A stretch of 64,000 nucleotides of DNA from NCBI RefSeq assembly GCF_026151205.1, contig NC_087077.1:19341975-19405974 (forward strand), written 5' to 3'. Source of the DNA: Bolinopsis microptera (lineage: Eukaryota > Ctenophora > Tentaculata > Lobata > Bolinopsidae). The position numbers and the translations under genes are program-made. A model generated the notes under the pieces. That model saw only the letters and a program-made list of their open reading frames with translations. It made no database searches and was not told the origin of the DNA. Every line of letters begins with the position of its first letter. The stretch's first letter is position 1. Positions 33,675 through 56,000 of the stretch are shown here, one piece after another.

Positions 33675-36600
33675 ATGGTGAGATTTGAAGATGAGGATGA
33701 TGCACCCCTGTTAGGGAGGGTAATACCAAACCCTGGCATCTTGAAAATGAAGAAGATCAGACTCTGGATAGCGGTTATTATTGTGGTTACTGTGGTCGGG
33801 GCTTTGTTCTTGGTAACCAGTACGAAGATTCATAATCAGAGCAGGGCGTACATGATCGGCCAGTACAGAGTTAAAGACACTAAGGTACAGTTTAATATAT
33901 AAGAATTATTATTGGCCGCAACTGCAAGATTACCACGGCTAGAATTGTTTTGTTAAATTTTTGTAGAGACTTTGTTAAGGGTTAGACTTACAAATGCTAC
34001 ATTTTACAGCATTATATTTCCAATATTGAATACTTTTCGGATATTTCCACATTTATTTTTCATCTGGATTCAAGATATGGCCATTATCCAAGCTGTAATT
34101 CAACTTGAATACTTCAGAAATCCACAAGTACTGATACTGATTACTGATAAACGATTAATGCCATTATTTTTTTTGATTAAGTCGATCATAAACATTTGAA
34201 CTGGGATTCCGAGCATAAGATTGAATTTTAAACTGAAATTACAGGATGAGGACAAACCTCTGGATAACGAGGGAAATCAGGTTATGGCCGAGTTGAATAC
34301 TTAAGAAATTGTTTAATAGACAGTTTATACCATTTTTATTAAAAATCAAGTCGATCGCAAACATTTGAAATGGGACCGTGAGTATAAGATTATAACGTTA
34401 ACTTAAATTGCAGGTTGAAGATAGACCTTTGTATAGCGAAGGAGGATTCAACGACTTTGTTGGGATTAACGAGACGGACCCACACGGTCCCAAACTGATA
34501 GGAGTCAAGCATGTGTCGAAGAGCAAAAACGAGGGGAAGAGTTCGGACGACGACTTTTTGCTGTTTGAAGCCACTGTTGAGATCTTGGACAACAAGATGC
34601 ACTACAGGTCGGTAATGGATTGCTGTTATTTTAATTTGAAAGACAGTCCGTGAACACGAATGGACATACCGTTTAAACTTTAAAAGGCTCATTTTGTTCT
34701 AAAAATGAAATGGCATAATATCTTTGTATAAGTTCTGGTAGTGGTAGTTAGGTCAAACACGGTCGTAATTCTTTCTAGCGTCTAGATCTATACAAATTAA
34801 TTGAACATTTTGACCTCTAACTTATAACTAATTCAATCGTCTAATATATCGTCCATAAGATACAGTAAACCCAAATAGATCTTCGAAAAACTCAATTTAG
34901 AGGCCTAAAAATGATTGATGTTCATTAGGTAATTAGTTTTTAGCTTTTAATATTTCAGGAAGGCCAGTAATGGTTGGGTTCCTAAACTAAACGTGATTAG
35001 TTTTTAGCTTTTAATATTTCAGGGAGGCCAGTAATGGTTGGGTTCCTGAACTAAACGTGATTAGTTTTTAGCTTTTAATATTTCAGGGAGGCCAGTAATG
35101 GTTGGGTTCCTAAACTAAACGTAATAAGTTTTTAGCTTTTAATATTTCAGGGAGGCCAGTAATGGTTGGGTTCCTAAACTAAACGTAATTAGTTTTTAGC
35201 TTTTAATATTTCAGGGAGGCCAGTAATGGTTGGGTTCCTAAACTAAACGTGATTAGTTTTTAGCTTTTAATATTTCAGGGAGGCCAGTAATGGTTGGGTT
35301 CCTAAACTAAACGTGATTAGTTTTTAGCTTTTAATATTTCAGGGACGCAAGCTGTAATGGTTGGGTTCCTAAACTAAACGTGATTAGTTTTTAGCTTTTA
35401 ATATTTCAGGGAGGCTAGTAATGGTTGGGTTCCTAAACTAAACGTGATTAGTTTTTAGCTTTTAATATTTCAGGGAGGCCAGTAATGGTTGGGTTCCTAA
35501 ACTAAACGTGATTAGTTTTTAGCTTTTAATATTTCAGGGAGGCTAGTAATGGTTGGGTTCCTAAACTAAACGTGATTAGTTTTTAGCTTTTAATATTTCA
35601 GGAAGGCTAGTAATGGTTGGGTTCCTAAACTAAACGTGATTAGTTTTTAGCTTTTAATATTTCAGGGAGGCTAGTAATGGTTGGGTTCCTAAACTAAACG
35701 TGATTAGTTTTTAGCTTTTAATATTTCAGGGAGGCCAGTAATGGTTGGGTTCCTAAACTAAACGTGATTAGTTTTTAGCTCTTAATATTTCAGGGAGGCC
35801 AGTAATGGTTGGGTTCCTAAACTAAACGTGATTAGTTTTTAGCTCTTAATATTTCAGGGAGGCCAGTAATGGTTGGGTTCCTAAACTAAACGTGATTAGT
35901 TTTTAGCTTTTAATATTTCAGGGAGGCCAGCTGTAATGGTTGGGTTCCTAAACTAAACGTGATTAGTTTTTAGCTTTTAATATTTCAGGGAGGCGAGTAA
36001 TGGTTGGGTTCCTAAACTAAACGTAATTAGTTTTTAGCTTTTAATATTTCAGGGAGGCCAGTAATGGTTGGGTTCCTAAACTAAACGTGATTAGTTTTTA
36101 GCTTTTAATATTTCAGGGAGGCCAGCTGTAATGGTTGGGTTCCTAAACTAAACGTGATTAGTTTTTAGCTTTTAATATTTCAGGGAGGCCAGCTGTAATG
36201 GTTGGGTTCCTAAACTAAACGTGATTAGTTTTTAGCTTTTAATATTTCAGGGAGGCTAGTAATGGTTGGGTTCCTAAACTAAACGTGATTAGTTTTTAGC
36301 TTTTAATATTTCAGGGAGGCCAGTAATGGTTGGGTTCCTAAACTAAACGTGATTAGTTTTTAGCTCTTAATATTTCAGGGAGGCCAGTAATGGTTGGGTT
36401 CCTAAACTAAACGTGATTAGTTTTTAGCTCTTAATATTTCAGGGAGGCCAGTAATGGTTGGGTTCCTAAACTAAACGTGATTAGTTTTTAGCTTTTAATA
36501 TTTCAGGGAGGCCAGCTGTAATGGTTGGGTTCCTAAACTAAACGTGATTAGTTTTTAGCTTTTAATATTTCAGGGAGGCCAGTAATGGTTGGGTTCCTAA

Positions 36601-39600
36601 ACTAAACGTGATTAGTTTTTAGCTTTTAATATTTCAGGGAGGCCAGTAATGGTTGGGTTCCTAAACTAAACGTGATTAGTTTTTAGCTTTTAATATTTCA
36701 GGGAGGCCAGTAATGGTTGGGTTCCTAAACTAAACGTGATTAGTTTTTAGCTTTTAATATTTCAGGGAGGCCAGTAATGGTTGGGTTCCTAAACTAAACG
36801 TGATTAGTTTTTAGCTTTTAATATTTCAGGGAGGCGAGTAATGGTTGGGTGCCTAAACTAAACGTGATTAGTTTTTAGCTTTTAATATGTCAGGGAGGCT
36901 AGTAATGGTTGGGTTCCTAAACTAAACGTGATTAGTTTTTAGCTTTTAATATTTCAGGGAGGCCAGTAATGGTTGGGTTCCTAAACTAAACGTGATTAGT
37001 TTTTAGCTCTTAATATTTCAGGGAGGCCAGTAATGGTTGGGTTCCTAAACTAAACGTGATTAGTTTTTAGCTTTTAATATTTCAGGGAGGCCAGCTGTAA
37101 TGGTTGGGTTCATAAACTAAACGTGATTAGTTTTTAGCTTTTAATATTTCAGGGAGGCCAGTAATGGTTGGGTTCCTAAACTAAACGTGATTAGTTTTTA
37201 GCTTTTAATATTTCAGGGAGGCCAGTAATGGTTGGGTTCCTGAACTAAACGTGATTAGTTTTTAGCTTTTAATATTTCAGGGAGGCCAGTAATGGGTGGG
37301 TTCCTAAACTAAACGTGATTAGTTTTTAGCTTTTAATATTTCAGGGAGGCTAGTAATGGTTGGGTTCCTAAACTAAACGTGATTAGTTTTTAGCTTTTAA
37401 TATTTCAGGGAGGCCAGTAATGGTTGGGTTCCTAAACTAAACGTGATTAGTTTTTAGCTCTTAATATTTCAGGGAGGCCAGTAATGGTTGGGTTCCTAAA
37501 CTAAACGTGATTAGTTTTTAGCTTTTAATATTTCAGGGAGGCCAGCTGTAATGGTTGGGTTCCTAAACTAAACGTGATTAGTTTTTAGCTTTTAATATTT
37601 CAGGGAGGCCAGTAATGGTTGGGTTCCTAAACTAAACGTGATTAGTTTTTAGCTCTTAATATTTCAGGGAGGCCAGTAATGGTTGGGTTCCTAAACTAAA
37701 CGTGATTAGTTTTTAGCTTTTAATATTTCAGGGAGGCCAGCTGTAATGGTTGGGTTCCTAAACTAAACGTGATTAGTTTTTAGCTTTTAATATTTCAGGG
37801 AGGCCAGCTGTAATGGTTGGGTTCCTAAACTAAACGTGATTAGTTTTTAGCTTTTAATATTTCAGGGAGGCTAGTAATGGTTGGGTTCCTAAACTAAACG
37901 TGATTAGTTTTTAGCTTTTAATATTTCAGGGAGGCCAGTAATGGTTGGGTTCCTAAACTAAACGTGATTAGTTTTTAGCTCTTAATATTTCAGGGAGGCC
38001 AGTAATGGTTGGGTTCCTAAACTAAACGTGATTAGTTTTTAGCTCTTAATATTTCAGGGAGGCCAGTAATGGTTGGGTTCCTAAACTAAACGTGATTAGT
38101 TTTTAGCTTTTAATATTTCAGGGAGGCCAGCTGTAATGGTTGGGTTCCTAAACTAAACGTGATTAGTTTTTAGCTTTTAATATTTCAGGGAGGCCAGTAA
38201 TGGTTGGGTTCCTAAACTAAACGTGATTAGTTTTTAGCTTTTAATATTTCAGGGAGGCCAGTAATGGTTGGGTTCCTAAACTAAACGTGATTAGTTTTTA
38301 GCTTTTAATATTTCAGGGAGGCCAGTAATGGTTGGGTTCCTAAACTAAACGTGATTAGTTTTTAGCTTTTAATATTTCAGGGAGGCCAGTAATGGTTGGG
38401 TTCCTAAACTAAACGTGATTAGTTTTTAGCTTTTAATATTTCAGGGAGGCGAGTAATGGTTGGGTTCCTAAACTAAACGTGATTAGTTTTTAGCTTTTAA
38501 TATTTCAGGGAGGCTAGTAATGGTTGGGTTCCTAAACTAAACGTGATTAGTTTTTAGCTTTTAATATTTCAGGGAGGCCAGTAATGGTTGGGTTCCTAAA
38601 CTAAACGTGATTAGTTTTTAGCTCTTAATATTTCAGGGAGGCCAGTAATGGTTGGGTTCCTAAACTAAACGTGATTAGTTTTTAGCTTTTAATATTTCAG
38701 GGAGGCCAGCTGTAATGGTTGGGTTCCTAAACTAAACGTGATTAGTTTTTAGCTTTTAATATTTCAGGGAGGCCAGTAATGGTTGGGTTCCTAAACTAAA
38801 CGTGATTAGTTTTTAGCTTTTAATATTTCAGGGAGGCCAGTAATGGTTGGGTTCCTGAACTAAACGTGATTAGTTTTTAGCTTTTAATATTTCAGGGAGG
38901 CCAGTAATGGTTGGGTTCCTAAACTAAACGTGATTAGTTTTTAGCTTTTAATATTTCAGGGAGGCTAGTAATGGTTGGGTTCCTAAACTAAACGTGATTA
39001 GTTTTTAGCTTTTAATATTTCAGGGAGGCCAGTAATGGTTGGGTTCCTAAACTAAACGTGATTAGTTTTTAGCTCTTAATATTTCAGGGAGGCCAGTAAT
39101 GGTTGGGTTCCTAAACTAAACGTGATTAGTTTTTAGCTTTTAATATTTCAGGGAGGCCAGCTGTAATGGTTGGGTTCCTAAACTAAACGTGATTAGTTTT
39201 TAGCTTTTAATATTTCAGGGAGGCCAGTAATGGTTGGGTTCCTAAACTAAACGTGATTAGTTTTTAGCTTTTAATATTTCAGGGAGGCCAGTAATGGTTG
39301 GGTTCCTGGACTAAACGTGATTAGTTTTTAGCTTTTAATATTTCAGGGAGGCCAGCTGTAATGGTTGGGTTCCTAAACTAAACGTGATTAGTTTTTAGCT
39401 TTTAATATTTCAGGGAGGCCAGTAATGGTTGGGTTCCTAAACTAAACGTGATTAGTTTTTAGCTTTTAATATTTCAGGGAGGCCAGTAATGGTTGGGTTC
39501 CTGAACTAAACGTGATTAGTTTTTAGCTTTTAATATTTCAGGGAGGCCAGTAATGGTTGGGTTCCTAAACTAAACGTGATTAGTTTTTAGCTTTTAATAT

Positions 39601-42600
39601 TTCAGGGAGGCCAGTAATGGTTGGGTTCCTAAACTAAACGTGATTAGTTTTTAGCTTTTAATATTTCAGGGAGGCCAGTAATGGTTGGGTTCCTAAACTA
39701 AACGTGATTAGTTTTTAGCTTTTAATATTTCAGGGAGGCCAGTAATGGTTGGGTTCCTAAACTAAACGTGATTAGTTTTTAAACTTTTAATATTTCAGGG
39801 AGGCCAGTAATGGTTGGGTTCCTAAACTAAACGTGATTAGTTTTTAGCTTTTAATATTTCAGGGAGGCCAGTAATGGTTGGGTTCCTAAACTAAACGTGA
39901 TTAGTTTTTATCTTTTAATATTTCAGGGAGGCCAGTAATGGTTGGGTTCCTAAACTAAACGTGATTAGTTTTTAGCTTTTAATATTTCAGGGAGGCCAGT
40001 AATGGTTGGGTTCCTAAACTAAACGTGATTAGTTTTTAGCTTTTAATATTTCAGGGAGGCCAGTAATGGTTGGGTTCCTAAACTAAACGTGATATTGTTC
40101 CACGGGGAACACTTCACATCAGCCATATGGAACGATATAGGAACTCTAGAGGACCTGGCTAGTAGTGGGTACAGAGTGGTAGCTCTGGAGCTGCCGGGTC
40201 ATGGACTCTCATCTCTGGATCCTAAGTTGAGACCTGCTGAGTTTATAAAACTATTCATTCAGGTCAGCATTGTCTCTTGTATAAAGATATCTTGCTTTTA
40301 GAATTGTACATTTCAAGCTTAAATATAAATAGTTTCCACGCCACTAAACACTGCCGCTGCTAACTTTGAATATTCCGCCGCCGATTTTGTAAAAACCCCC
40401 GGTATCTGTTATTACTAAAATCATGATGTAAACCTTTGTTACGTTTGAAAACAGATTACCACACCACGTCTATGACAGACATTCGAGGTTAGTATCCATG
40501 ACCATAACACACGTGCTCACTGCTCAGTAGAAAGTTCATTAATTTGTCAAGTTCTAGTCTTTCCAGATTAATAGATATGGGGATGAAATTAGGGTCTCAC
40601 TCACTGTAACACAAAATAGGCATGTAGCCGAAACGTGGACAATCTATTGCATGTATTTTGTTTTACAGTGAGTGGAGACTATCATTTCGTACCCAGCAGT
40701 CTATCATGATCGACTCACTCATGATGCAGAGCAAAAATCGAAACATACTTTCAAGATTAAACAGAATATTACCGCTAAAACATGATGACGACTAAACATA
40801 TTCATACGACCAAATTTTTCACGGACATTGTGAAAATGTGTGGTGATTTTTTAATAAGTGGTTTACCCTTTTTCTGAACTCTAGAATCGAAGTCATGGTG
40901 ATCATGGTGTTACTGTTATAACTTAAGTACTTAAACTTACTGTTATGTAAATTAAATACAGAGTGAATGTGACTGAGGAGTAATTATATTTGTCCTAGTA
41001 TACTAATGTCTAATAAGCTTATATAGTAATTGGCTACACACATACCTATTACCTACGCATGTGTAGGGACACACACACTAAAATTAATGGAAATAATTAC
41101 CGGACTTTATTATTCACGGACCTTATTGCCAAAGACATTATTTTCACGGACCAAATTATTCACGCTAAGGTCTTCAGCGTGAAAATAATGTCCGTGACAA
41201 TTATGTCCAATAAGGTATTTGGTTTCTCTACTTTCAAGATTTCGTTGAAATTGAAAAATGCAATACAAAAATATTTCGTATCAAAATCCAGCAATTTTAG
41301 CGCTGGTTATTAAAATATATGCTCCTTCAAAAATATATCAATATATTAATCAAATCACTTCTTACTTCCCTCCCTTCTATAATAACCCATGTTTACCAAA
41401 TGCTTCAAGGAAGTTGTCATGTCTCATCAGTCATGATGTTTCTGACATGACAAATTCAATGTCCGCAGCTAATAGCACGCCTCAAATTAATCAGTGCCAA
41501 GCACAACTTTAGAATACTGCCCCACCAAATCATGCCTTTACGTTAAAAACTAATTCTCGTATGATTGCCTAAAGAAATAGTACATATTAGCGATTGGTTA
41601 TTATATTTTGGAATCAGTCAGAAGTCATGTCATCGAGATGATCCTAATACATGGTAACTAATCTATATTATATCTCAAATTCTACATCCGGTACGGCTCT
41701 GCACACATGATATCTCTCTCTGCCATGAAACATGGCAAACCTTTTAAACCATGATTTAAAACCTAAACCTAAACCTAAACTTAAACTCAACTGGGCTCTC
41801 CTATGTCACCAAACTAGACCAATAACCAATTTTAGATAATTATATTTTTCTATATTTGTATAATAAGTAAATTGACGTAGTGGATGGTTGAGAGGGTTTC
41901 AAGCACAGGTCACTCTCAAATCCTAAAGATAAGCAGTGGCCTTCGGCACTTGAAACCTCTTCAAACCTCCCCTGATTTATTTATTATTGATATTGTTTGA
42001 TTGTGCCGTAAAAATAAATATTTGTTTTATTAAATAAATATTTGTTTTATTAATTCAAATGAATAATGTCACGATGACTCACGCCTCGGTGGTTCTCTCC
42101 AAAGTATGGGGATTTTGAAATCCCCACCATGATAAAAAATAAAAAATTTAGTTTTTGAACTCTCCATTGCCCTAAAATCGATCCCATCTCCGCCTGATTT
42201 CTCTTTCTTTTCTCTTTTTAAAGCCCCCTAATGTTGACATTGCAACCTATTGCAAGCCATTATATCTGATTTATAGAATTTAATGTTTACAGCTGAGAAA
42301 TATGTTTCCACAAATGCCGTTTAGTTTATGTTTCTACAGCCATATCAACTGCGCAGAGTCTGCGGCCCATCGATCCATGCTTGATGCTATTTATAATAGC
42401 CTGTAGATATATCCTCCTGGCTTCAGTCAGAGGACCATCCAATCCTAGATATATCACCTTATGTTCAGTGGTGTAACGTTGCATTAATATTTATAAAAAA
42501 TAGATTATCAATATGCAATTGAGCAATGTTTCTTCGAACACATGTACTACAAATCTCACAGTCACCATGTTACTTTTCTCAGCTCCCACTAACTATTCTA

Positions 42601-44482
42601 AGGGCTGAAAGGGATTTAATATAGTCTATACCATTTCAACTCTCAATGAAATTGCTCTTTTAATATTGTTCTCAAAATTAATGAAAGGCGTCGAATGGGA
42701 TTGGTGTATTCTTAATGAAGATCAATCTATAGTCAGTACAGTTTTGAGGACGGTCCCTTCATTGGGCATGAAGACTTGCAGCCGATCGAAAAACAGTTCA
42801 TGCTCATCAAGAATATTACATTTTGACTTCAAGTCGCTCACTACCAACAAATTTCCAGGGAGAGTTCTTGATATCTTAGTAAAAATAACATTGACACATC
42901 TTGTTTTAGAGTGCAAATGATTAACCTTCTTTTCTAGATGTTTCTTTATACTAATACTATTACTAATACCACTTGATTTAATTTCAGCACTTGGATCTGT
43001 ACCGACCTGGAGTGGTCCTCTTGAGTGCAGATAGTAGCAATACTGCCACTATGGAGTACCTCATACGATACAGCAAGCACAGTCCTCTTCTTAAAGGGTA
43101 AGTCTGAGCAAGTATATGTTAGTGCCATGACCAATGTCTATCATGGAAAATTGCAAGGTATCAAATTCTCGTGGTTTCATCACGTCATGTTAACTGTTAT
43201 AATACCTACCGGGAATTATATCCACTAAAATTCGTGGACACTGAGAGCTGATCATTTGCAAATATATCCCGCAAGGGAAGCGAAGGTATTATCAGCATAG
43301 ACTCAGACTGGCTGTTTATTTATGGATTTACAAGCAAGGTCAGACAGGATCAGCTTCAATGCTCTTTAAAAGTCAGACTTCTTCAGGTTAAGTTTCAATC
43401 ATCGGATCAGGTCAGGTTCTGAACCTGACCTGAAAGGATTTCATGAATATTCAAACATTAACAAGCCGATAACCGGGCCATAATTTAAATGCACTATCCA
43501 GTTGCTGGTGAATTTATTTGATAAAGTAAAGAAACTAAGGTGATGTTATAACGTTTGTTCTGAAGATGTAATATTTCAGGTACATCAACATAGATTCAGC
43601 AAACAATCAATACACAGATATGCAACGAATCACAGCGCAGACTATCAATGCTCAAGTTCTCTTTCTTTGTGGCGGAAAGTAAGTTGAACTTAAGTTATGA
43701 AATTAAGTTTAAAAATCTTAAATGCAGTCACTGTGCAAAGATTTTCGCATAAACTTTGTAAAAATGACCCCTGTTTAACAAAACCAGACTCTGCCTCATC
43801 ATAGAATTAAATAGATATCTGGCTTTGCTGTTTTGATGAAGATATAGCATTTAGAAGTTCTAAAATATTGACGTGATTGGATGATCGAATAGAATACCGC
43901 TAGACTCTGTGAATTGAAGAGCAGTAACCCTATCTTAGCTTTACCTTTGCACTATGACTTGCAGCTCGCATTTCCTTTTGACTGATGCAGGATTTATAGC
44001 ATAAAATTAAAAATAGATAAAAGCAAAAACTATATCAGCAAAGTTTTTGTCTATATTATCTTCTCTCCATAAAAGTGAACAGCTCTTTCACCAAACTGTT
44101 TATATCACTTGTATCGACATTTCACAGTCCCCATTAACAATCAACAATTCCCCAAACTGTATCCACTCTAACAGTCCACGATTCCCCAAGCAGTATTCAC
44201 ATTTCACACTAACAGTTCATTATTCCTGAATTCCTCAAACAGTATCTAGATCTAACCTACACTCCACTTTACTCCTCAAGCTGTATCAGGACTAACAGTC
44301 CATTACTCCGCAGGGATGCAGAGTGTTTGACAAGTTCCCACGACTGGTCACGCTACATCACCAGCTCCCGAGTACACTCCTTCTCTAACGCCTACAAGGA
44401 GTTCTATAACGAGGACCCTGTAGTTTTCAACACTGTCTTGAAGCGCTTCCTCGAGTACTTGTCCAAATCAAACGATTCGTGA
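33675..44482 (+). CDS. ABHD14-like alpha/beta-hydrolase, membrane-anchored
   Basis: Exons join in phase: 33675-33884, (34245-34280 optional), 34414-34607, 40055-40262, 42988-43097, 43580-43678, 44314-44482, giving 329 residues (341 with the optional exon). All introns are GT-AG. Exon 1 encodes a short acidic cytosolic tail and one membrane span (IAVIIVVTVVGALFLV), a type II anchor as in ABHD14A. The hydrolase part has the oxyanion-loop HG in LFHGEHFTSAIW, the GYRVVALELPGHG strand-turn, and VVLLSADSSN where ABHD14 proteins carry the SxSxSG nucleophile elbow. FLCGGKDAE fits the acid strand. The position of the catalytic His reads SNAYKEFY, with no His. The family assignment is good; activity is doubtful. 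Intron 2 (or 3) is filled by a 64-bp acceptor array. Confidence 0.85.
34160..34450 (+). repeat. Tandem duplication of intron end plus exon start
   Basis: The stretch 34166-34280 and the stretch 34335-34450 align: both contain AAGTCGATC, AAACATTTGAA, a TAAGATT word, an acceptor (AAATTACAG or AAATTGCAG) and a related exon start (DEDKPLDNEGN versus VEDRPLYSEGG). The first copy has its own donor (AATCAG then GTTATG) and stays in phase, making an optional 12-residue exon. Confidence 0.75.
34931..40092 (+). repeat. 64-bp array of splice acceptor plus exon start
   Basis: About 80 tandem copies of a 64-bp unit; a 67-bp variant has an extra CTG. Each unit contains intron end (TTTTAGCTTTTAATATTTCAG) trimmed to about 25 bases, then 39 bases identical to the start of exon 40055-40262 (GGAGGCCAGTAATGGTTGG...AACGTGAT). 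Only the last unit continues into real coding sequence (ATTGTTCCACGG). Variants (CTG insertion, GGCGAG, AGCTCTTAAT) recur about 1.61 kb apart, showing a higher-order repeat of about 25 units. The upstream exon ends TAC-AG, and joining any unit gives the correct phase for the exon start. In a non-final unit the frame then stops at GTG-ATT-AGT-TTT-TAG. Confidence 0.95.
40594..40679. repeat. Small inverted repeat in ABHD14-like intron
   Basis: GTCTCACTCACTGTAACAC at the left is mirrored by the reverse strand of TTTTACAGTGAGTGGAGAC at the right, enclosing CATGTAGCCGAAACGTGG. It looks like a short fold-back element or a transposon remnant. The rest of this intron (40263-42987) is AT-rich; at 41100-41220 it holds loosely inverted TTCACGGAC/GTCCGTGAA words, and no gene. 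Confidence 0.6.
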
Positions 44483-45114: not shown

Positions 45115-46402
45115 GACGAGGGTGTCAAGTTGTTTGGTATTGTTGAAGTAGGTGCTGGTAGTGGAAAGAAGTCCATGAGCTTTAAGAACAGGCGAAAGGA
45201 GGAGATTGACAGCCTGATTGAAAAGAGGAAGCAGTTGAGGAGGAAGAAAAGGAAGGCAAGGAGTGAGATAGAGAAGGATGGTTATGAGGCATTATTGAGA
45301 GTGTTGGCTGGTCGTTTGATGAAGTTGAGGAGGGCTGAGAAAAGGAGACAGAAGCAGAGAGAGATAAGGAGAGTTAGAGGGGATTTTGGACGCGACCCTT
45401 TCAAGACAGTCAAGGGAGTGCTAAATCCAAGTCCAGTGGGGGAGCTTAAGTGTTCAAAGGAGGAGCTAGATGATCACTTGGCCAGAACGTACGGAGATCC
45501 AGCCCGGCAGCAGCCCCTTGGTATACTTGAGGGTCTGCCTGAGTGTGCTCCTGAACCCTCTGTTGCCTTTGACCTCACAACGGTATCCAAGAAGGAGTTT
45601 GAGGAGGTTGTAAAGAAGGCAAGGAGCAAGAGTGCCCCGGGTAACAACGGGATCCCGTACACAGTGTACAAGAGATGTCCTGGTATTGCCAAGAATCTCT
45701 GGGACCTGTTGAGAACTGGATATAAGTTAGAAGAATATCCTGACAATTGTAGGTATTTCGAGGGTGTCTACATCCCAAAGGCGGATGGCGACTTTTCACC
45801 AAGTTCAGGACGGCCTATTTCCCTGGGTAACATTCAAGGGAAGATTTATTTGGCGATCCTGGCGAAGAGGTTGACCAGCTTTGTTGTCTCGAATGGATAT
45901 GTAGACCTCTCTATACAGAAGGGTGGTGTGCCAGGCGTCCGTGGGTGCACGGAGCATTTTGGTGCCATGTGGGAGGTACTGAAGGAAGCAAAGGTCAAGA
46001 AGAAGGATCTGAGTGTGGTATGGCTTGACCTGGCTAACGCTTACGGAGCGGTACCCCATGTTCTGATTGCCAGGGCCCTCCGTTTCTACAACGTCCCCGA
46101 GAAGGTTATCAACATTATCCTACGGTACTTCTCCGGGGTATTCGGAAGGTTCTCCTCAAGATCGGTGACATCAGACTGGCAGCAGTTTGAGATAGGAATC
46201 TTCATGGGGTGTGTGATATCAGTCATCTTGTTTGTCTTGTGCATGAACCTTGGGCATGAACACCTAAAGTCTAAGGTTCCGAGAAGCATTGAGTACATCA
46301 AGGATGACACACCGATACCAACTCTGAAGCTGTTTATGGACGATAGCTGTCTGACGACCGCACGTGCAGAGGATATGCAAACGTTACTCAATGTGTTTCA
46401 GA
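45115..46402 (+). pseudogene. REL-type LINE, reverse transcriptase part
   Basis: The frame is open from the left direct repeat to the array. The N-terminal portion is a basic, probably coiled region (KRKQLRRKKRKARSEIEKD). RT motifs follow: SAPGNNGIPYTVYKRCP, SGRPISLGNIQGKIYLAIL, QKGGVPGVRGCTEHFGAMW, motif A in VVWLDLANAYGAVPH, and motif C in KLFMDDSCLTT (FMDD rather than the usual F/YADD). The QKGGVPGxxGCxEH and WLDLANAYGxVPH wording is typical of REL-bearing clades. The frame reaches NVFQ and then enters the inserted repeat and stops at 46425. A working protein would continue into 47604-48809. Confidence 0.82.
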
Positions 46403-47603
46403 ATGTATTGTTTTTTGTATATTAGAGCTTTAGCCACAGGTAGGTTGGTCTGCACGGAGCCCCACAGTTTCAATTCCTTGTTTAACTAGCCGTACAGCAA
46501 GGATATCCACTGTGCTCACCAGGTTAGGCACATAACCAACACTACCCTGCTAAAGTTAGCTATATACTATGGTTTTCTCGAAAGTATTTCCTTGTATTTG
46601 ACTTTCGTCAAGAAAGTACTCTTACTTTCGGTTCAGATGTTATATAAGCTAGCCTTTATGTGGTCCGCAGGGCGGAGGAACCGCCACACACTTCTCACCC
46701 AGCTACGAATACAATGTATTGTTTTTTGTATATTAGAGCTTTAGCCACAGGTAGGTTGGTCTGCACGGAGCCCCACAGTTTCAATTCCTTGTTTAACTAG
46801 CCGTACAGCAAGGATATCCACTGTGCTCACCAGGTTAGGCACATAACCAACACTACCCTGCTAAAGTTAGCTATATACTATGGTTTTCTCGAAAGTATTT
46901 CCTTGTATTTGACTTTCGTCAAGAAAGTACTCTTACTTTCGGTTCAGATGTTATATAAGCTAGCCTTTATGTGGTCCGCAGGGCGGAGGAACCGCCACAC
47001 ACTTCTCACCCAGCTACGAATACAATGTATTGTTTTTTGTATATTAGAGCTTTAGCCACAGGTAGGTTGGTCTGCACGGAGCCCCACAGTTTCAATTCCT
47101 TGTTTAACTAGCCGTACAGCAAGGATATCCACTGTGCTCACCAGGTTAGGCACATAACCAACACTACCCTGCTAAAGTTAGCTATATACTATGGTTTTCT
47201 CGAAAGTATTTCCTTGTATTTGACTTTCGTCAAGAAAGTACTCTTACTTTCGGTTCAGATGTTATATAAGCTAGCCTTTATGTGGTCCGCAGGGCGGAGG
47301 AACCGCCACACACTTCTCACCCAGCTACGAATACAATGTATTGTTTTTTGTATATTAGAGCTTTAGCCACAGGTAGGTTGGTCTGCACGGAGCCCCACAG
47401 TTTCAATTCCTTGTTTAACTAGCCGTACAGCAAGGATATCCACTGTGCTCACCAGGTTAGGCACATAACCAACACTACCCTGCTAAAGTTAGCTATATAC
47501 TATGGTTTTCTCGAAAGTATTTCCTTGTATTTGACTTTCGTCAAGAAAGTACTCTTACTTTCGGTTCAGATGTTATATAAGCTAGCCTTTATGTGGTCCG
47601 CAG
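46403..47603 (+). repeat. Four tandem copies of a 311-bp repeat inserted in LINE
   Basis: The array begins AATGTATTGTTTTTTG and ends GTGGTCCGCAG. It holds four 268-bp cores separated by three identical 43-bp linkers (GGCGGAGGAACCGCCACAC...CGAATAC); the period is 311 bp and copies look essentially identical. The LINE frame stops at its left edge (NVFQ) and resumes at its right edge (YVDWSRFKLK). A diverged single copy of the middle of the unit lies at 17691-17850, so the unit is an interspersed repeat. TATATAAGC words occur late in each unit. Confidence 0.9.
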
Positions 47604-50063: not shown

Positions 50064-53000
50064 TTAAACATTATTATAAATATTAATTTTAATATGCAGT
50101 TCTCTTACTCTGTTATTCCTGACGTAGTAGAGAAAGGGGTTGAGAGTGGAGTTAATGAAAGGCATTACAACGTAGAGGGATGAAGCTACTACTCCCCCTG
50201 TTGGACTCCAGCTACCTGTAGTACTACGGGATTATTGAAGAGATTAAAGTTACATGGCACCTGCTGTGCTATATGTTGTACAAAACACAAGTAAATATTG
50301 TAATATTCTGTTTATAACAGTAAGTGTAAGGATTAGAGAGGAAGACCAAGGCAAACTTACTGACAATAGCAGACTCTGATAGAACATTCAGTGTCTTTAA
50401 GAAGCCTACGATTCCCATGAACCACCAGAATATATAGCAGGAAGTAAAGGCTACAGCAAGGAATATCATAGTAACTGCTGCTGTCTGGAAATTATATAAT
50501 TAAACAATTTATTACAAACATGTCCAATCATAATGAATTGGACATGTTTGGGTAGTATTACTGTTGGGCAGTATTTCTCCCATAGCTAATACAGTGTCTA
50601 ATTAAGCTAATTAAGCTAATTAAGCTAATTAAGCTAATTAAGCTAATTAAGCTAATTAAGCTAATTAAGCTAATTAAGCTAATTAAGCTAATTAAGCAAA
50701 TTAAGCTAATTAAGCTAATTAAGGTAATTAAGCTAATTATAACCTGCTTCTCCATCTGCCTCTTCTTCAGCACATTTGTCCTCTTTTGCGAGGAGGAGGA
50801 GCCTCGCGAGAGGTCGTTTAGCTGGATCTTGTTGGCGATTATCTTGTTGGCGAGTAGCAACTTGAAGGTAACCGCAGCACAACATGATACTAGGATAATA
50901 GCTGGCAGGATGACCGGGCAGATGTACAGGAGGAAGTACATGGGAGATATCCACGAGGTACTTTTCTCGAACACTACCTGCGTTATATTTCATTAACTTC
51001 ACCAACAATGATTGCTTTGTTCTAATTTTGCTTCCTTGAGTAATACCTGAATTTCATTAATTAACTTCCTCGAACGATAACTTTTTCCATTTAGTTAACT
51101 CCCTCAGACAATTCCCAATAATCATACTATATATAAAGCGAGACGATATATATATATATATATAATATGTATTAAACGGATTATGTATACAGTATTTGAC
51201 CAAAACCCATAATCATGGGTAGAGTGTACCGCTGCCAGTGTCTCTCTTTTCCAAACAAAAGGAAATGATATTAATTTGAGGAACAGTCCGCTAATGCAAA
51301 TTGATACCGAGAATGAAATCGGTCGCTCGCTTTTTCAAATCAATAAGCTTTATTACAATTCGTAAGCCGTGATCGAATGGAAAAAGCGAGCGACCGATTT
51401 CATTCTCGGTATCAATTTGCATTAGCGGACTGTTCCTCAAATTAATATCATTTCCTTTTGTTTGGAAAAGAGAGACACTGGCAGCGGTACACTCTACCCA
51501 TGATTATGGGTTTTGGTCAAATATCATCTCTTTTTGATTATAATGTCAGGATAATTTACACAGCTAGTCGAAACTTCATTAACAAGGAGGTAATTTCGAC
51601 GATTTCGAAATTCTGCCTTTGAAAACGTTTCCTTGTGTTTAGTTAGGTATTTCTGTCGATAACCGACTGAATATGGCACTTTTTACTCATTCAAGTTGGC
51701 ATTAAATTCGTATATAATGCCATTTAAATATCGTGGAAAGCAGAATATATTCGAAATCACGAATGAGCAAATTTCTCACCTTTCGCACGTGCAAACTTTG
51801 AGCGGACGTCGCGTGCGCATACAATATTGAATCACCGTAAATTTTTGCATTGTGGTATTTAATATATAGTTTGATAAGCATGCAAAGTTTCAGAAGATTT
51901 CAAAAAGAACTTGGATCACAACGGGACTCCAAAGTTGATAAAAATCGTGAAAATCAAAATTTTTAGCGATTTTAGCTATTTTAAATGAATTTGGGCGTGT
52001 CCCCACGTGTGCAACTTTTCGATTTTTAACTTTAAAACTAGCCTATAACACAATTTACACCTTTAAGAAGCAAAATTGAGCTCCACAACCCAAGGGATGG
52101 CCCAACACCAGAGAATACTAATTCACAACTTTTGTGTTTTTATAAAATTATTCTTCAAAAAAGCACTAACTTCAATAGCAAATATCTTTATGAAGGAGCA
52201 AGGTAGGAAACTATTCCGGTAGATTTTCGGAATGCTTGAACAATTATCTAAGATGAAAATGTCTTCAGATTTTGAATAAAATTACTCCTTAATAGTGTAA
52301 AATCGATTTAAAAAGTTGTTACTTTGTCAAAAGTCAAGTTTTAAAAACACTTAACTTGATGACGTCATCAAGTGATGATGATGACGTTAAATTATTTTTC
52401 AATACAATGTAAACTAAAGCTTAAACAATTATCTTTAAAACCTGTGGTTCGAGATGACTGTATCGTTTATACTTTTGAATCTACGGACACTTAAATGTAG
52501 GCTACAATTGATTGCAAAAAGCGTCTATACATATATACATATATATATACATATATATCTACACGACAATCTGTTGTAAAACAGGGGTTCGAGAAAACCC
52601 ACTTCCCGATACTCCTGAAACATGAAATTTTTTTTACAGTCGATTTGGACAAGGTCTAGACGCCCTGCAAAGTTTCAGATCTCTAACTCAATTTTAACAT
52701 GGTTTTTAAGGCACCTGAATATGGCGATTTTGGGTTTTTTACCTAATTTCGTATAACATGCTGGCGCGTATTTTGCGCAGATTTCTTAAAAACCTCCATA
52801 TAACTATTTCTTATTCCTGTCATCTTCAACATTGAATTAGAATGTTTTGAACTTAAATGTACCTGCTGAACTACTTTCGATGAGTCTTAATGCCTGGAAA
52901 ACAATAAAGGGGATATAATCGTATAGGGGGTAAATAGTGTTGTGAATATAAGGGCGACGGTAATGCTTGCCAGCATTGTGATATATATTATATAATACAT

Positions 53001-56000
53001 ATATATATATCCGTACCATTTTACTGACACCACGGCATCAACTTTAACACGACTTTCCGCATAAAACGTAAAAGATATACAACTTGAACTTTTTTGGCTG
53101 GTTCAAATGAATTATTGGCCTTCAAATCAGCATCGGAGTTTTCTACTTTTGAGAAAATCTAATGTTGTTTATTCATTGTGTAAATTTGTATGTAATTGAT
53201 CGATTTGAAAGATTTCAATAAAAAAGCATGAAAAAATAAAAAATTGGCCAAGGAATAAGAATTTGAATGCCCAAAATTTGAACCCCAGTGGTATCAAAAA
53301 CGCGAATTAAATAGTTATTTTAATATATTGAGTCTTGACACCACTTTAGGGTTAGACGGGTTCCTGCTTGTCTAATTAAGTCATATGATTATTATTTCAA
53401 GAAAATTTCTGATTTTTCTGAATAGAATCATATCAATGAAGACAATGTTCTTCATAAGAACATTTTTATCACTGAGCCTATTCAGAAAAAATCAGACATT
53501 TTCTTGAAAGAATCCTCAGACAGTAGTGATACCTCCGAATCTAAAATTAACTTCATCGATCAATAGCTTTTATCTAGTATTTAACGATTTCATTGTCTAG
53601 TCATTGCAGATGAAATTATTTAAATAATGATATGCTCAACCTCCTGTTGTCGCGAGAAATTGAATACAAATTAAATTCAGGTTTTTACGTTAAAATACTG
53701 AAGGTGAAGGTGAAGGTGAAGGTGAAGGTGAAGGTGAAGGTGAAGGTAAAGGTGAATGTGAAGGTGAAGGTGAAGGTGAAGGTGAAGGTGAAGGTGAAGG
53801 TGAAGGTGAAGGTGAAGGTGAAGGTGAAGGTGAAGGTGAAGGTGAAGGTGAAGGTGAAGGTGAAGGTGAAGGTGAAGGTGAAGGTGAAGGTGAAGGTGAA
53901 GGTGAAGGTGAAGGTGAAGGTGAAGGTGAAGGTGAAGGTGAAGGTGAAGGTGAAGGTGAAGGTGAAGGTGAAGGTGAAGGTGAAGGTGAAGGTGAAGGTG
54001 AAGGTGAAGGTGAAGGTGAAGGTGAAGGTGAAGGTGAAGGTGAAGGTGAAGGTGAAGGTGAAGGTGAAGGTGAAGGTGAAGGTGAAGGTGAAGGTGAAGG
54101 TGAAGGTGAAGGTGAAGGTGAAGGTGAAGGTGAAGGTGAAGGTGAAGGTGAAGGTGAAGGTGAAGGTGAAGGTGAAGGTGAAGGTGAAGGTGAAGGTGAA
54201 GGTGAAGGTGAAGGTGAAGGTGAAGGTGAAGGTGAAGGTGAAGGTGAAGGTGAAGGTGAAGGTGAAGGTGAAGGTGAAGGTGAAGGTGAAGGTGAAGGTG
54301 AAGGTGAAGGTGAAGGTGAAGGTGAAGGTGAAGGTGAAGGTGAAGGTGAAGGTGAAGGTGAAGCTTACCGGAATTTGCCAGACGCACATCCTAAACTGAG
54401 AAGAGTAGGTGTAAAGATGGCCCGTCATGAAGGGAACACATGAAATGAGAATGGAGACAGTCCACGCCAACACTACGTATAACTTAACAATCTTCACCAC
54501 CCCTGATCGCTTATACCTGTCAAATCTGAATCATAATTTTCTGTGTAAACAGTATCAGGTGTTCAAGTGGTCAATTGAATCTAATTTTTCATTTTTTTGG
54601 CGACGTATGGTCACCTTATAAACAGGAAACGTTTGCTGTTGGCATTTTTGCCGTTTAACAATCGACCAAATCCACAATTTTACCGCCTACTTTGAAGTTT
54701 GAATGTATCTAAATGAATCGCTTAATGTCTCAAAATTTAAGAATTGTCTGGCGAACAAAAATGTTTTAGCCGTTCAACCTCTCACTGTTTTAACTGCTCT
54801 TGATAAATAAAAGATATTATCAGAGTTTAAATATGACGTTCTACTAAATGGTTAGTGGGTTGTCAGAGGTAAGCATCCTCCGGGTCTAGACTTCAATAAA
54901 CTTAATCATCTTCCAAGCAATCAGTATGTTGTCAACTGGAACTCTATTTTGCCGTCTCGTGGCTCATTATCTTAACTTCCGGCACAGCAGGCTATCTAGA
55001 CAATTCACTGTCATTTCAGGAATAATTCTTCATCAAGCTACCATATAACATCAAATCTTGATATATAACATCAAATAAAGTGGTCATCTAAGTACAGAGG
55101 TCATCTAAAATCTAAATGGTCAATAAAGCGGTTATCTAATCACGGATGGTCGGATACTCATAAATAAGTAGTTATTTGGTTCGCCGCTCATAAATTGAAA
55201 ATGATTCATTGCCCAAATTTGTTCAATAAAACCTGATAGTGATACTAAATTTAGTATTTCAAGAGCTCTTTGACTTTGAGTTTGATCACTGACAATTTAA
55301 ATTAAACCTGGTTTTGAGACAGAAACTTACCTGGTGTGCAAAACGAGCACAACTAATATAGTCTGGTAATCAATGTTTCAAAGCGCTCCTATTTGAAAGA
55401 ATTTATGTCACACTTGCCCTCCACGATAAACATATTACCCACTGAATACAACTGTGTTGAAAAAATTCTCGATTCTTCAGAAAAATATCAGATCAATAAC
55501 GAACCTGAAGGGCTTGTAAACCGCGAGCCATCTGTCCATACCAATCCCAGCGACTATGAAGAGAGTACATCTGGACAACACGTTGAACTGGAAACCTATC
55601 ACATTGCAAATAACCCTGTAATTAATATTAAATCATTTTTATAAGAGAATATCCTAATTATAATATGATCGTATATGCTCTTCAATACCAATATCATTAT
55701 CAATCTAGATTCTAGCTGTAGAATTGAATCCAGTGCATATCTGTATGTAGAGTGTGGCTTTATAATTAATAATATGGAGACTTGACCCAACATATAATTA
55801 ATAATTATCTTCCATTTCATGTTTATGTGTAACGCTTACTTCCAACCATAGGATGGAATTAAAAATGACCCCTGCACGAAAATCTTTCTGTTAAAAATAA
55901 AAATTCGCAAACTTTTTTGTCAAGTCGTCATCATTGTTAACGTAGAGATTTTTGTTTAGAAAACCGGCCATTACAAACGTCATGGTTATCACTGTCATCG

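Follow-up and report, generated by a model that had tools for sequence, protein, structure and literature searches.

An 80-copy minisatellite built from a splice boundary in an ABHD14-like gene

Here we report that intron 2 of an ABHD14-like gene, located in a 64,000-nt stretch of genomic DNA (NC_087077.1, positions 19,341,975 to 19,405,974; the whole stretch is called the window), holds a tandem array of 80 near-identical units, each of which joins the end of the intron to the start of the next exon. Unlabelled coordinates are window positions, on the + strand unless stated. Very probably the array is a minisatellite of the mirage type, a tolerated by-product of recurrent tandem duplication across exon edges and not a device. 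Mirages are minisatellites of intron–exon boundaries described in amphioxus Adh3 and in the globin genes BflGb6 and BflGb9, with units of 10–160 bp and a length that is unstable between alleles and somatic cells (PMC3087553). Judged against that account, the window array has mirage geometry with far more copies and is of a published kind; with the amphioxus genes and the further cases in this genome described below, the statement in a first-pass annotation of this DNA that no standard element has such a design does not hold. What is unusual here is the copy number and the transcript-like support for the last copy. The main observation of that annotation, a splice-boundary array of about 80 copies, is confirmed; its regulatory reading is possible but not supported.

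The array and the boundary it repeats

Tandem Repeats Finder (TRF), run on the window, detected a single array at this site with a period of 64, 80 copies and 97% matches. Counting splice acceptors also gave 80 copies, with exon starts running from 34959 to 40055, in agreement with the roughly 80 copies of a 64-bp unit annotated before. Successive acceptors are 64 (65 times), 67 (13 times) or 65 (once) bases apart, and therefore no CAG-less copy was skipped in this count. The CAG is kept in 80/80 copies, within the acceptor word ATATTTCAG in 79 of them and ATATGTCAG in the remaining one, so that a splice signal is found throughout the array. About 27 nt of each unit come from the end of the intron and 37 nt from the start of the exon; the 39 shared coding bases proposed earlier are reached only if the AT that follows is included. 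Three extra bases (CTG) are present in the exon part of 13 copies, and one extra base in the intron part of copy 76. At its edges the array reads GGTAATTAGTT on the left and ACGTGATATTG on the right. An array of 80 near-identical units is beyond chance without the need of a test, and its 80 acceptors go back to the multiplication of one duplication and do not count as independent coincidences.

That the unit spans an intron–exon boundary, as the first-pass annotation had it, is borne out by TRF, the acceptor count and two lines of protein evidence, which also place the start of the coding exon at 40055, the point that the annotation had put forward for checking. A protein search with a 216-aa query returned five proteins, including P0002 and P0003. 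P0002 has 329 aa; its cluster has 14 members, its sources are jgi and lgn and its longest contig measures 1670 nt. A six-exon gene model agrees with it at 327/329 residues, with the 34607/40055 junction exact. Because the 10.8-kb gene appears intron-free on the P0002 contig, which is no longer than 1.7 kb, this contig is most likely transcript-derived, presumably from complementary DNA. The match indicates that this animal, or one very close to it, makes an mRNA in which exon 2 is joined to the acceptor of the last copy. P0003 (332 aa), 76% identical across 311 aligned positions, shares the junction peptide. Moreover, residues 122–321 of P0002 match PDB 1IMJ ('CCG1-interacting factor B'; E 1.1e-12), which we take to be human ABHD14B, and an alignment of the product around the junction with 1IMJ passes across it as EATVEILDNKMHYR/EASNG-WVPKLNVILFHG. 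The unit thus holds intron and exon sequence of one and the same boundary, and the junction is backed by P0002 and by the 1IMJ alignment.

Table 1 Features of the host gene and its boundary duplications in the window
Feature	Position	Strand	Evidence or remark
Coding exon 1, ABHD14-like gene	33675..33884	+	Spliced model of 329 aa, 2 differences from P0002
Degenerate copy of intron 1/exon 2 boundary (34324-34443), own CAG ending 34244	34155..34274	+	Local alignment; not used in P0002
Coding exon 2, closing in phase 2 with CACTACAG/GTCGGT	34414..34607	+	Frame check and P0002 match
Intron 2, 5447 nt, 324 nt of it (34608-34931) ahead of array	34608..40054	+	Six-exon model
Boundary minisatellite (mirage-type), unit 64/67 bp, 80 copies	34932..40093	+	First 79 copies intronic in P0002-type mRNA
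Last copy, sole one with exon part continuing into exon body	40028..40091	+	
Coding exon 3, 208 nt, starts at last acceptor	40055..40262	+	HYR/EASNG junction aligned with 1IMJ, present in P0002
Coding exon 4	42988..43097	+	Six-exon model against P0002
Coding exon 5	43580..43678	+	Six-exon model against P0002
Coding exon 6 including stop codon	44314..44482	+	Six-exon model against P0002

The gene is ABHD14-like as judged from a sequence match that extends over the width of the fold. Its five introns (529, 5447, 2725, 482 and 635 nt) all have GT..CAG ends. With Pfam, Abhydrolase_6 scored 24 bits, below the cut-off of 26.3, for the 216-aa query, which included one wrong exon; this exon, 34245-34280 of an early gene model, was dropped, as P0002 and P0003 are without it. 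In exon 6, the GAGH of 1IMJ faces NAYK in the alignment, so that its His is not kept, and NAYK is also found in P0003. We take the His of this stretch to be a catalytic residue in the human protein; from the alignment, the catalytic His may have been lost and the protein may be a pseudo-enzyme. Relatives of the locus were confirmed neither in the set of genome contigs nor in that of viral contigs searched.

Reading frames and acceptor use

A frame check from the upstream exon, which ends in phase 2, met a stop for 79/80 acceptors after 16–25 codons: 16 codons for 65 acceptors, 17 for 13 and 25 for one. Only from acceptor 40055 does the frame stay open to the donor at 40263, so that both the single productive acceptor and the truncation predicted earlier for every other copy stand. 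Measured to this donor, the exon would be 208, 272, 336, 400 or 464 nt long from the last five copies and 5304 nt from the first; exons of up to 300 nt arise from 2/80 acceptors (208 and 272 nt) and exons of up to 500 nt from 5/80.

The idea that acceptor choice acts as a switch between a full-length and a truncated product is not supported. The sole full-length match from the gene among the proteins found, P0002, has the productive junction. When the predicted 150-aa truncated product was used as the query, seven proteins were returned, each of them the representative of a 90% cluster; all seven sequences were inspected, and none continues over the junction into VISF. This absence is weak evidence, because nonsense-mediated decay (NMD) would deplete such RNA; the P0002 junction and the 150-aa search are both compatible with NMD-targeted isoforms.

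All donor scores come from a generic donor matrix. The best GT word within the unit is AAC/GTGATT with 3.9, which would close a decoy-exon-like stretch of 34 nt in each unit, and CCA/GTAATG scores 1.8; the five real donors of the gene score 4.1–10.1. Among background GTs in the gene's introns (n=222), the 90th percentile is 3.7 and the 95th is 5.1. The best in-unit donor therefore resembles a good background GT, yet is not far under the weakest real donor. Given donors this weak, the micro-exons through GTAATG or GTGATT that had been suggested, and likewise recursive splicing, were rated low. For the two copies inspected (2 and 80), the branch-like CTAAAC words annotated for each copy are indeed found, at 41 and 36 nt before the CAG; they belong, however, to the exon part of the copy that precedes, and copy 1 has none before it. 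Two further AGs (−24 and −17) intervene between these words and the used CAG, which makes a role as branch sites doubtful.

Growth of the array and boundary duplications elsewhere

The units fall into 19 types with a mean pairwise identity of 98.4% (64 aligned columns). Fourteen types are seen once, at copies 1, 3, 4, 7, 11, 17, 30, 31, 34, 37, 55, 68, 76 and 78, slightly more densely at the 5′ edge, and copies 79 and 80 are of the common type. Unit identity plotted by lag peaks at 25 units (15 lags), as does the matching of unit types (lags 1–49). Because the unit order at lag 25 is non-random (p 0.0004, 5000 permutations) and an 11-unit string reappears 25 units on, the array probably grew in part by multi-unit duplications, each of about 1.6 kb.

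The same gene holds a second, smaller boundary duplication. The degenerate copy of the intron 1/exon 2 boundary aligns locally with its counterpart at a score of 80, and 1000 shuffles reached no more than 31. Neither P0002 nor P0003 contains the peptide of the degenerate copy, and P0002 uses the copy that adjoins the exon body.

Arrays with a period of at least 20 and at least four copies were collected from 20 stretches of 10 kb. The 19 arrays found cover 16.5 of the 200 kb sampled; 18 of them were viewed by their flanking open frames alone. The other, at L016 (8101-8987), starts inside an exon for which Pfam gives an activin-receptor domain (PF01064; 23.5 bits against a cut-off of 20.9) and repeats about 22 last exon bases plus GTAAGT in about 30 copies, a donor-side counterpart of the window array. 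Downstream of it, a CAG is followed by an open frame that contains a membrane-helix-like stretch. The joined L016 exons had no PDB match, and the second of them had no Pfam match. In addition, a genome-wide pattern search for three tandem TTTTTCAGG gave 29 matches at four places, and the backward control gave 12 matches. No enrichment is claimed; two of the four places were inspected, of which one fits, and the two on C11 were left out. The fitting place, on C7 (L032:1-821, minus strand), has 24 overlapping matches, corresponding to at least 26 acceptors in a row, each with TTTTTCAG and an exon start. Its last copy runs into an open frame ending ACTG/GTAAGT; in both other copies inspected, this frame hits an immediate stop. 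The exon has no Pfam match above cut-offs, and from its layout L032 is a probable acceptor-side boundary array. The array with TTTTTCAG on C13 (L033) was not counted, as its last copy enters no clear exon. On the sequence of these loci, boundary duplication in this genome is not limited to one gene and hits both acceptors and donors.

Origin of the array and competing readings

The by-product reading would account for the array as follows. The array edges, which read GTAAT and GTGAT, are consistent with a first tandem duplication that arose at a short imperfect repeat of these two words and took in the boundary of intron 2 and exon 3. Growth to 80 copies, partly in multi-unit steps of about 25 copies, would then have lengthened the intron from about 350 nt to its present length. 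If exon definition applies and splicing takes the exon as one whole, the acceptor nearest the real donor at 40263 should win, and the upstream copies would be mostly ignored and yield at most low-level unproductive RNA. The array would be tolerated because exon definition picks the copy attached to the exon body.

A functional decoy array, in which the upstream acceptors, some of them paired with the weak GTGATT as 34-nt decoy exons, bind splicing factors, lower or regulate productive splicing and let array length set expression, like intron-retention decoy exons, appears unlikely to us. It would make use of the 79 intact CAG acceptors that stand in series upstream of the real one and of the early stop reached from each, and a precedent is reported in OGT, where weak-donor decoy exons cause intron detention (PMC12017769). 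It is opposed by the lack of a truncated product among the seven proteins from the 150-aa query (cluster representatives only), by the same geometry in other genes of the genome, which points to a mutational process, and by the published account of mirages, in which Adh3 data and globin reverse transcription–PCR suggest that regular splicing is left undisturbed (PMC3087553). Less likely still is a splicing rheostat tuned by copy number, in which dozens of identical upstream acceptors tie up the early spliceosome or give rise to truncated RNA; if this were true, the unstable array length would set heritable, perhaps somatic, differences in the expression of the gene.

Several points weigh against the by-product reading; two of them, the donor scores and the variation within the unit, also speak for a decoy role. 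The junction evidence is protein sequence and is silent on the share of transcripts that each copy receives, and the animals behind P0002 may have a shorter array or none. The closeness of the best in-unit donor (3.9) to the weakest real one (4.1) makes a decoy role conceivable. Furthermore, the acceptor part of the unit varies somewhat less than the rest: 4/27 columns vary in the intron part and 9/37 in the exon part, with 5 and 11 distinct changes, respectively (6 of the exon-part changes are synonymous and 5 are not), and the sole exon-part indel is the 3-nt insertion carried by 13 copies. Lower intron-part variation, the exon-part pattern and the 80/80 CAG could hint at constraint; the events, however, are few and have been copied about.

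Two other explanations have a very small probability. An assembly artefact, with a real copy number that is very different or no array in most individuals, would fit the mean unit identity and the length instability of amphioxus mirages, which extends to somatic cells and led to an error in a draft assembly at one of them (PMC3087553). It is difficult to reconcile with the 19 unit types and their non-random order, and with the uniqueness of the locus: the exon 3 part of the query (positions 95-491) has no match elsewhere in the genome, and a search of the genome for paralogues with the first 216 residues (which held the 34245-34280 exon) gave three exon matches, all at this locus. Intron gain under way, in which the copies are raw material for new exons and introns as proposed for the amphioxus globins, is the published model for mirages (PMC3087553) and could draw on the candidate donors in each unit. 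These donors are weak, however, and neither P0002 nor P0003, at 76% identity, has an extra or altered segment here.

As in BflGb6, the repeated unit fuses an intron's 3′ end with the 5′ part of the exon behind it. Two BflGb6 haplotypes have six and three units of 150–160 bp (PMC3087553), whereas the window array consists of 80 near-identical copies of 64/67 bp, in a genome of 264.65 Mb. The BflGb9 mirage holds the 3′ boundary of an exon and has its likeness in the L016 array, so that, as described for amphioxus, both boundary types occur within one genome, here on the donor side at L016 and probably on the acceptor side at L032. Also as in the amphioxus genes, splice signals lie in many copies; the transcripts of those genes contain the authentic section that adjoins the exon (PMC3087553), and P0002 suggests the like here. 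Decoy exons of OGT, SF3B1 and ARGLU1 are similar in being intronic splice sites whose use yields NMD-type products; as described, they have an acceptor and a donor and a tested effect on intron retention (PMC12017769), whereas the array has weak donors and is known from sequence. Variable internal tandem repeats in human segmental-duplication genes, with a mean of four units of 30 bp, likewise alter gene structure by minisatellite expansion at exon–intron boundaries and are discussed as exon or intron elongation or new introns (PMC2812944). The minisatellite CeRep25B, near alternative splicing regions of C. elegans, is also tied to splicing; it is described as carrying regulatory motifs and, unlike the window array, is no copy of the gene's own boundary (PMC4039745).

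Eighty near-identical acceptors with one productive member amount to a natural experiment on how the spliceosome chooses among equal 3′ splice sites. Together, the window array, L016, the probable case at L032 and the two-copy duplication in the same gene suggest recurrent exon-edge tandem duplication in this genome, a process that bears on how introns lengthen and on the proposed gain of introns. If the genome is that of a non-cephalochordate, mirages extend beyond the amphioxus genes of PMC3087553.

Further repeats were noted downstream in the window. On the minus strand at 53699-54363, about 110 copies of (TTCACC)n start right after a donor-like GTAAGC that ends a frame with, by eye, a membrane-helix-like stretch; this frame has no Pfam match. 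A 9-bp array at 50598-50739 (minus strand) starts within about 10 bases of CAG/GTTATA, the possible end of a second frame, which shows membrane-helix-like stretches by eye and no Pfam match above cut-off. Finally, at 46402-47603, a 311-bp unit is repeated 3.9 times with 100% matches between two long open frames, which by eye resemble parts of a single reverse-transcriptase element.

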